50,304 nt of DNA from Syntrophaceae bacterium (lineage in GTDB: Bacteria; Desulfobacterota; Syntrophia; Syntrophales; Smithellaceae): contig PLMQ01000040.1 in NCBI GenBank assembly GCA_003142535.1, positions 1-50,304 on the forward strand. Reading direction: 5' to 3'. Below the pieces are notes generated by a model. The model ran no database searches. It worked only from the letters and a program-made list of their open reading frames with translations, and was not told the origin of the DNA. Shown one piece after another: positions 1,821 through 4,250 of the stretch (position 1 is the first letter of the stretch; every line of letters begins with the position of its first letter). The position numbers were made by a program, and so were the translations under genes.

Positions 1821-1939
1821 TTTATTCGTGAAACTCCAATTTCAAAAACATAGTGCATTGAAATTGGCTAGCTGAACAATCCCGCGTAAGCGGGGGATAT
1901 AATACTCCGCAGCTTGCTTTGGGGTTCATACCCGTGATT
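1821..1939 (-). repeat. Dispersed stem-loop repeat, copy 1 (full length)
   Basis: In repeat orientation (minus strand) it begins AATCACGGGTATGAACCCC. It continues with a segment containing GCGGAGTATTATATCCC, the hairpin CCCGC-TTAC-GCGGG and the hairpin CCAATTTCA...TGAAATTGG, and ends GGAGTTTCACGAATAAA. Its first 46 nt match copy 4 (6613-6750) exactly. It overlaps the last 14 nt of the upstream cysteine synthase fusion gene and supplies its stop codon. Confidence 0.9.
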
Positions 1940-4250
1940 TAAATTGCCAGACTGCTCCTTGTGGTGTATCCAAAACTGCAACACCGAGGTTTGCAAGCTC
2001 ATCTCTTATAGAATCCGCCTGCTGCCAGTTCTGGGCGTTTCTGGCGGCTGCTCTTTTTTCGAGCAATTCGCGTATTTCTTTTTGAACAACTTGCTCTGCA
2101 AAATCCATTATCCCCAGAACTTCATTAATATTTTTTAGCGCGGCGAGAATCTTCCCGGCATCGCTTTTATTAACAACCGCCTGAACAATAATAATATTTA
2201 CCTTACCAATAAAATCAAAAAGCGCGGCAAGAGCACCGGCAATATTCAGATCGTCGTCTAACGCTGCGACAAAACCATTTTTCAGATCGTAAAGCAATTG
2301 ATCTATTTCCGCACAACCATTTCCATCGGTGTTGACAGCCTGTAACCGGCTAATAAAAATGTCGAGCTTTTTAACTGTATTTTTCGCCGTCTCCAGAGCT
2401 CCGTCCGAATAGTTGAGTGGTTTGCGATAATGCACGCCCTGAAGAAAAAAACGGACATCTCTTCCCCGATAACCGCGGTCGCGCAATTGCGCAAGGGATA
2501 AAGCATTATTTAATGAACGGGACATCTTTTTACCGTCAACCATTACCAGCTCCGCATTAATCCAGTAGTTCGGACCGTTCTTGCCGGAAAAAGCTTTATT
2601 TATCGCCAAGATATTTTCACAATGAGGAAACATTTCATCAACACCGCTGATATGAATATCATAAGTAGCACCTAAATACTTCTGGGAAATTGCTGCGCAT
2701 TCCAAATGCCAGCCGGGGCGAACATTACCCCATTTAGTCTTGTAATAAATCCCTCTTTTCAATTCCGCCAAACTAGTCCTTTTTAGAAGAACAAAGTCCG
2801 CAGAGCTATCCTTTTCAAAATCGTCAAGATCAATTGATTTACCCTGACGGGTCTTCTCCAGATCAATATTGGACAGAACTCCATAATCCGCCATTTTTGA
2901 TATATCAAAATAAACAGAATGTAATTTTTCGTAGGCATAACTTTTATCGACCAGTTTTCCGGCAATCTTGAGCATTTCTTCAACATTTTCTGAAGCATTG
3001 ACGTAAATATTATCAGAATGAATATTTAAAGGAAGGGCATCTTCCAGAAATATCTGCCGATATTTATTGGAATAATCGGCCATGTCCATTCCCGCTTTTT
3101 CCGAGCCCTTGATTGATTTGTCAGTCATGTCAACAATATCAATTATGTGCTGCACTTTGTAACCTTTATAAATCAGATAGCGATGAATCAAATCAGAGAC
3201 AACAAGCCGCCGGTAATTGCCCAGATGCGGCGCATCATGAACAGTAGGCCCGCATGTATGCATTTGCACTTGCCCGGAATTAATCGGTTTAAATAAGGTA
3301 TTCCGGCGTTTGATAATATTAAAAAGATTAAATGAGGAAAGCTCTTCTTTAACCGCGAAAAGTTCTGTGCTTAAATACCTCTCCCCGCTATCGGGGAAAA
3401 TAACAACTATCAGGCCATCTTCTATCTGCCGGGCTTTCTCGGCAGCAACAAACATAGCCGCGCCGGAACTCATACCGGCTAAGATTCCTTCTTCCCTGGC
3501 CAACCTGCGCGCCATCGCAAAGGCATCTTCATCTAAAATGCTCACCTTTTCATCCAAGCGACTTTTATCAAAGATCCCGGGCCGGTATGATTCCCGCATA
3601 TTTTTCAGCCCTTGAATCTTATGCTGCAGATAAGGCTCGACTCCGATAATTTTAATTTGCGAATTTAATTCCCGGAGCTTCTTAGATATACCCATAGCTG
3701 TTCCAGATGTACCCAGACTGGATATAACCATCGTCACCTTTCCTTTTGTCTGCTCCCATATCTCCCGGGCAGTACCGCAGTAATGAGCGGCAATATTGTC
3801 TTCATTATTGAATTGATCCGTACCAAAATATTTACCGGGATTATCGCGCAGCATTTTATAAGCAACTTCGATCGCGCCGTCCGTTCCCTGATTGGCCGGG
3901 GTAAAATGCAGCTCCGCACCCATAGCGCGCAAAATTTTCTTTCTCTCTTCGCTGGCCGACTCCGGCATAGTAAGGCATAATTTATATCCCTTTGCCGCTG
4001 CGATCATGGCCAGACCGATTCCCGTATTCCCACTGGTCGCTTCTAAAATAATTTTCCCTCTGCTTAATTCTCCCCTTTTTTCTGCTCCTTCAATCATGAA
4101 TAAAGCAGCGCGATCCTTAATGGAACCTCCCGGATTGGCACATTCCAATTTTGCTAATATTTTTACCTTGGGATTGGGATTAAGCCGGCTAATTTCCACC
4201 AATGGCGTATTGCCAATAGTATCAGTGATGCATTTATAAGTTTTATCCAT
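1926..4250 (-). CDS. Fusion: cysteine synthase (CysK-type) / cysteinyl-tRNA synthetase
   Basis: The 774-residue protein joins two complete enzymes. Residues 1-305 are a PLP-dependent O-acetylserine sulfhydrylase: GGSIKD with the PLP lysine K45, TSGNTG at 72-77 and GTSGTAMG near 180. Residues 315-774 are a class I cysteinyl-tRNA synthetase: HTCGPT at 331, the HIGH-type motif HLGN at 342-345, WHLECA at 514, PHCEN near 543 with zinc ligands, KKMSRS at 574-579, and a C-terminal helical anticodon-binding region. Together they would make cysteine and load it on tRNA-Cys. No stop or frameshift separates the halves; the linker is about 15 residues. The last residues Ser-Arg-Val and the stop lie inside a dispersed repeat. 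Both domains look catalytically intact. Confidence 0.95.
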   Translation of the reverse strand: MDKTYKCITDTIGNTPLVEISRLNPNPKVKILAKLECANPGGSIKDRAALFMIEGAEKRGELSRGKIILEATSGNTGIGLAMIAAAKGYKLCLTMPESASEERKKILRAMGAELHFTPANQGTDGAIEVAYKMLRDNPGKYFGTDQFNNEDNIAAHYCGTAREIWEQTKGKVTMVISSLGTSGTAMGISKKLRELNSQIKIIGVEPYLQHKIQGLKNMRESYRPGIFDKSRLDEKVSILDEDAFAMARRLAREEGILAGMSSGAAMFVAAEKARQIEDGLIVVIFPDSGERYLSTELFAVKEELSSFNLFNIIKRRNTLFKPINSGQVQMHTCGPTVHDAPHLGNYRRLVVSDLIHRYLIYKGYKVQHIIDIVDMTDKSIKGSEKAGMDMADYSNKYRQIFLEDALPLNIHSDNIYVNASENVEEMLKIAGKLVDKSYAYEKLHSVYFDISKMADYGVLSNIDLEKTRQGKSIDLDDFEKDSSADFVLLKRTSLAELKRGIYYKTKWGNVRPGWHLECAAISQKYLGATYDIHISGVDEMFPHCENILAINKAFSGKNGPNYWINAELVMVDGKKMSRSLNNALSLAQLRDRGYRGRDVRFFLQGVHYRKPLNYSDGALETAKNTVKKLDIFISRLQAVNTDGNGCAEIDQLLYDLKNGFVAALDDDLNIAGALAALFDFIGKVNIIIVQAVVNKSDAGKILAALKNINEVLGIMDFAEQVVQKEIRELLEKRAAARNAQNWQQADSIRDELANLGVAVLDTPQGAVWQFKSRV

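Follow-up and report, generated by a model that had tools for sequence, protein, structure and literature searches.

The window, a 50,304-nucleotide stretch of a Syntrophaceae bacterium genome (contig PLMQ01000040.1 of assembly GCA_003142535.1), carries on its minus strand a gene in which a cysteine synthase is joined to a cysteinyl-tRNA synthetase (CysRS)-like protein. As the preliminary description of this DNA had it, the two lie in one chain of 774 residues, and the PLP lysine and the HLGN and KMSRS motifs are all there. The gene and its parts are as follows.

1926..4250, minus strand: fused gene, cysteine synthase plus CysRS-like protein, 774 aa (single uninterrupted open reading frame, ATG start, no internal stop)
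3357..4229, minus strand: PLP cysteine synthase domain, residues 8–298 (Pfam PALP and NCBIfam TIGR01136, above cut-off)
3330..3356, minus strand: linker, residues 299–307 (low model confidence; AlphaFold2 pLDDT below 50 at 294–304)
2382..3329, minus strand: CysRS-like catalytic domain, residues 308–623 (Pfam tRNA-synt_1e and NCBIfam TIGR00435, above cut-off; Foldseek matches 8qhp, 1u0b and 1li5)
3216..3227, minus strand: HIGH-type motif HLGN, residues 342–345 (from the sequence)
2610..2630, minus strand: FPHCENI, residues 541–547, zinc-site segment (alignment with 20 canonical CysS)
2514..2528, minus strand: KMSKS-type motif KMSRS, residues 575–579 (sequence and alignment)
2109..2273, minus strand: DALR_2 helical domain, residues 660–714 (Pfam DALR_2)
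1947..2078, minus strand: anticodon-binding domain, residues 725–768 (Pfam CysS_C)

Pfam domains follow one another in the order PALP (8–287), tRNA-synt_1e (320–623), DALR_2 (660–714) and CysS_C (725–768), all above their cut-offs, and the NCBIfam models cysKM and cysS score 370 bits (cut-off 344) and 371 bits (cut-off 340), respectively. The AlphaFold2 model (mean pLDDT 79, pTM 0.59) matches both O-acetylserine sulfhydrylase structures and CysRS structures, the tRNA complex 1u0b among them. The synthase domain is of the CysK/CysM type and nearest to CysM (47% identity to the E. coli/Salmonella CysM structures). It has the PLP lysine (Lys45, within GGSIKDR), SGNTG, fold and length of those enzymes, and differs in carrying a CysRS half. 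That half is full length (residues 308–769) and resembles canonical CysRS in its complete domain order, HLGN and KMSRS motifs, anticodon domain and fold (1u0b, 8qhp); it differs in its attached synthase, the absence of the glutamate zinc ligand, the presence of Arg348 and Arg491, and its position on a branch of its own. Across the fused family, 11–19 residues separate the two domains.

Genes beside the fusion in Syntrophales were named by eye as pilC/gspF-like, DUF1178-like, Memo-like and AMMECR1-like; none of the neighbours in these loci is a cysteine gene. In most Smithellaceae-type loci, the window's included, the fusion is followed immediately downstream by the AMMECR1-like and Memo-like genes (421–1806 of the window). 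Outside Syntrophales, no conserved gene neighbourhood was found.

A search of other genomes for the same domain order, as the preliminary description had proposed, found the fusion, whole or broken by contig ends, in 36 of the 40 nearest relatives. A sample of the wider phylum (395 genomes, 246 genera) had it in 156 genomes and 100 genera, mostly at full length and with identity down to 43%. This recurrence excludes a sequencing or assembly artefact joining two genes, the case that the preliminary description had named as its refutation. Apparent splits of the fusion in two genomes (G010 and locus L132) resemble frame breaks, and L132 carries ambiguous bases. Among the best 80 matches of a genome-collection scan, the named records with the fusion are Smithella, Syntrophus and related metagenome-assembled genomes, all Syntrophales.

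The fusion is ancient. In a tree with 20 canonical CysS, the fused CysRS halves form a separate, fully supported branch, and a branch with support 99 splits the PALP halves, together with two fused-type standalone synthases, from 15 standalone CysK. Arg348 and Arg491 are invariant in all 157 non-redundant fused copies (59 from Syntrophales, 98 from elsewhere), the set over which all motif and residue counts were taken; the canonical CysS consensus differs at both positions. The two standalone synthases (51–53% identical; the region of L339:1795 in G036:C6, and L340:2089-3015 in G033:C7) come from Syntrophales genomes that are without the fusion, and no CysRS half lies near them.

The preliminary description regarded both enzymes as complete, with zinc ligands intact. 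Both halves do pass their family cut-offs, but one zinc ligand is gone from the CysRS half. The ligands of E. coli CysRS are C28, C209, H234 and E238. Three of the four are kept in the window protein (Cys333, Cys518 and His543), and the position of Glu238 is occupied by Ile547; in addition, Cys544 replaces the neighbouring histidine (FPHCENI versus the canonical FPHHENE). The glutamate is missing from 59/59 Syntrophales copies, and the altered site is common in kind to the whole order.

The ATP motifs of the CysRS half have had a more varied history, and completeness fails more broadly among the relatives. Of the 157 copies, 79 have HIGH and KMSKS both intact, 21 have them partly intact and 57 have lost both. 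All 59 Syntrophales copies are motif-intact, like the window protein: His342 and Gly344 are present in every one, and KMSRS is kept throughout, apart from a Gln for Arg in one copy. Every motif-lost copy falls among the 98 from outside the order. At least seven changes between the intact and lost states were counted on the tree, using a quick and approximate method. In the motif-lost class the zinc site has also eroded (first Cys absent in 24/57, second Cys in 16/57, Glu in 28/57), and K45, SGNTG, G180/T181/T184, R733, R737, D746, R749 and D761 are retained in 57/57.

In an unselected scan, every column invariant in canonical CysS was compared between the motif-intact and motif-lost classes. 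Those kept in the former and lost in the latter were C333, T336, H342, G344, G536, D538, K575, M576, S579 and N582, all of them motif and active-site positions. Retention of canonical columns in the motif-lost class was 0.91 for the anticodon domain versus 0.65 for the catalytic domain; the corresponding values in the motif-intact class were 0.89 and 0.70, so much of the difference between domains is family-wide, and the list of columns carries more weight.

The residues of the anticodon domain that read tRNA-Cys are kept in each motif class. Arg733, Arg737, Trp742, Asp746, Arg749 and Asp761 match E. coli R423, R427, W432, D436, R439 and D451, at a constant offset in an alignment with 1li5. 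In the E. coli enzyme, R427 and D436 bond G34, W432 stacks on it and R423 takes part in a water network (PMC12684709), and a communication path from the anticodon domain to the active site has been reported (PMC9976931). Conservation of the domain could reflect folding alone, though some of these residues contact G34 in E. coli. A second tRNA-Cys as partner of the fusion was rejected: in a pattern search, seven relatives had a single typical tRNA-Cys apiece. None was found in the assembly that contains the window, which also lacks several other tRNAs and so probably has a gap there.

Separate cysS and cysK genes, which the preliminary description had suggested looking for, are both present in the window genome. 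The canonical CysS (G000:C27:25465-26937) is 35% identical to the fused half and has every motif intact; the standalone CysK (G000:C25) is 46% identical; and a serine-acetyltransferase-like gene scores 162.9 bits, below its family cut-off. Given these three genes, the CysRS half counts as an additional paralogue and not as the housekeeping charging enzyme of this genome, and the fusion as sole CysRS is ruled out here. Canonical CysS was found at E ≤ 1e-95 in all but nine of the 156 fusion genomes, in lists matched by eye in which the single weaker matches of G078 and G104 could be ambiguous. Four of the nine have a divergent standalone CysS, one has a fragment and four are draft assemblies. 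G196 and others seemingly without CysS are among those with a divergent enzyme. The divergent proteins of G196, G142 and G131 (L223, L224 and L226), with HIGN or HLGN and KMAKS, look like replacements of the canonical copy.

No cysteine synthase other than the fusion was matched (E ≤ 1e-35) in 75 of the 156 fusion genomes, including nine of 17 single-contig genomes, a count made on cysteine synthase matches within the best five candidates per genome. One such single-contig genome is G248, in whose CysRS half the first zinc Cys is Asp, HIGH reads TLTD and KMSKS is missing. K45 and the SGNTG loop (S73–G77) are kept in all 157 fused copies. From these residues and the sole-synthase status, the fused synthase is predicted to be an active O-acetylserine sulfhydrylase. 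The fusion is often the sole synthase, yet hardly any fusion genome does without a separate CysS, a contrast suggesting that selection acts on synthase function and that the CysRS half is accessory.

We favour, at a probability of about 0.45, the reading that this protein is a cysteine synthase with a tRNA-Cys-sensing CysRS half, rather than the cell's charging enzyme. The ancient fusion would have joined a functional O-acetylserine-type cysteine synthase to a duplicated CysRS. The synthase half would make cysteine; the CysRS half would bind tRNA-Cys through its anticodon domain and would most likely act as a sensor in cis, tuning the synthase to the charging state of tRNA-Cys and perhaps to cysteine and ATP too. 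Charging of tRNA-Cys for translation would fall to the separate CysS. We infer tRNA-Cys binding, synthase activity and regulatory coupling, and the reading is the simplest because a fused synthetase copy may lose its charging chemistry and not its anticodon contacts, with the synthase conserved. The preliminary description had linked the making of cysteine to the charging of tRNA-Cys. The strictly conserved synthase and the retained anticodon-reading residues support a link to the tRNA; charging by the fusion as a housekeeping enzyme falls away.

The strongest competitor is a true bifunctional enzyme, in which new cysteine would be handed to an active CysRS as an auxiliary route of tRNA-Cys charging. 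HIGH and KMSRS occur together with three zinc ligands and the anticodon residues in the window protein, as in nearly every copy from Syntrophales, and 19 copies from outside the order even combine the full set of four zinc ligands with both ATP motifs. The near-universal separate CysS and the loss of the zinc Glu throughout Syntrophales argue against it, and the fusion persists although both ATP motifs are gone from 57 of the 98 non-Syntrophales copies; we consider it less likely than the sensor. Because the ATP motifs are so strictly kept in Syntrophales, charging may nonetheless persist there, and the CysRS half may retain the ability to make cysteinyl-adenylate or Cys-tRNA with its altered zinc site.

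Two other activities appear improbable. The first is chemistry on the tRNA itself, the PLP half turning Ser or phosphoserine on tRNA-Cys into Cys as an analogue of SepCysS. A PLP β-replacement enzyme here shares a chain with a presumed tRNA-Cys-binding domain, and RNA-dependent cysteine synthesis has precedents among methanogens and in a few bacteria (PMC5424206); however, the PLP half resembles ordinary CysK/CysM, the window genome has its serine-acetyltransferase-like gene, and no mischarging enzyme was identified. The second, slightly less probable still, is attachment of cysteine to a small molecule by an MshC-like ligase. Syntrophales copies do keep the ATP motifs beside an altered zinc site. 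MshC is not known to have an anticodon-binding domain, and here CysS_C is retained with its tRNA-reading residues; the MshC family score is 171.6 bits against a cut-off of 485.1, and the fusion loci have no pathway neighbours. MshC and CysRS* are known CysRS paralogues, duplicates with new roles as is proposed for the fused half, and CysRS* is also without an anticodon-binding domain (PMC9437257). Neither is fused to a synthase. Four shorter CysRS-like proteins without the C-terminal domain (29–34% identical; G170:C61:164362-165489, G035:C11:363-1619, G038:C44:78444-79673 and G033:C19:46222-47430) are possibly CysRS* or MshC-like. Least probable is the synthesis of cysteine persulfides by the CysRS half with help from the PLP half. 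The preliminary description had pointed to sulfane-sulfur chemistry because CysRS enzymes are reported to form persulfides with PLP, and the E. coli enzyme reportedly does so (PMC10655014). The idea is unlikely, since the lysines reported to bind PLP there (KIIK and KMSK) are not conserved: the second KMSK lysine is Lys in 0/157 fused copies, mostly Arg, and the KIIK lysines vary.

The sensor reading has a precedent in HisZ, a HisRS paralogue without adenylation that regulates HisG (PMC9437257). Like HisZ, the fused half would be a synthetase paralogue put to work in making the amino acid of its own type, next to an ordinary synthetase, which the window genome and nearly all fusion genomes possess. 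Loss of adenylation residues applies to the 57 motif-lost copies; in Syntrophales, the window protein included, they are intact. HisZ is a separate subunit that senses free histidine, whereas the fusion is one chain with its anticodon domain kept, and HisZ-like allosteric control of the fused synthase is putative. The arrangement in Gcn2 is similar, with a HisRS-like domain that reads uncharged tRNA attached to an effector enzyme, but Gcn2 is a eukaryotic kinase, with a different synthetase and a different output. Against a pure sensor, Syntrophales would not need HIGH and KMSRS unless cysteine or ATP is sensed through that site. The coupling is also dispensable, as fused-type synthases stand alone in G033 and G036.

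A description of a cysteine synthase–CysRS fusion was not found in the open-access literature, although it may have been mentioned elsewhere or in automatic annotation; among CysRS paralogues, a 2022 review names MshC and CysRS* and not this fusion (PMC9437257). Put more fully, and more tentatively than the sensor reading itself, this may be an undescribed cysteine synthase, widespread in one phylum, that is gated in cis by an anticodon reader of tRNA-Cys, often a pseudo-enzyme, and so coupled to translation demand. Feedback on amino-acid synthesis usually acts through the free amino acid or RNA leaders. If the proposal is true, a biosynthetic enzyme with a built-in tRNA reader would connect charging state to supply directly, at the protein level. 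The family also offers a natural set of CysRS domains in which ATP and zinc chemistry has been lost several times and the anticodon-reading residues kept, useful for studying how an aminoacyl-tRNA synthetase may become a sensor.
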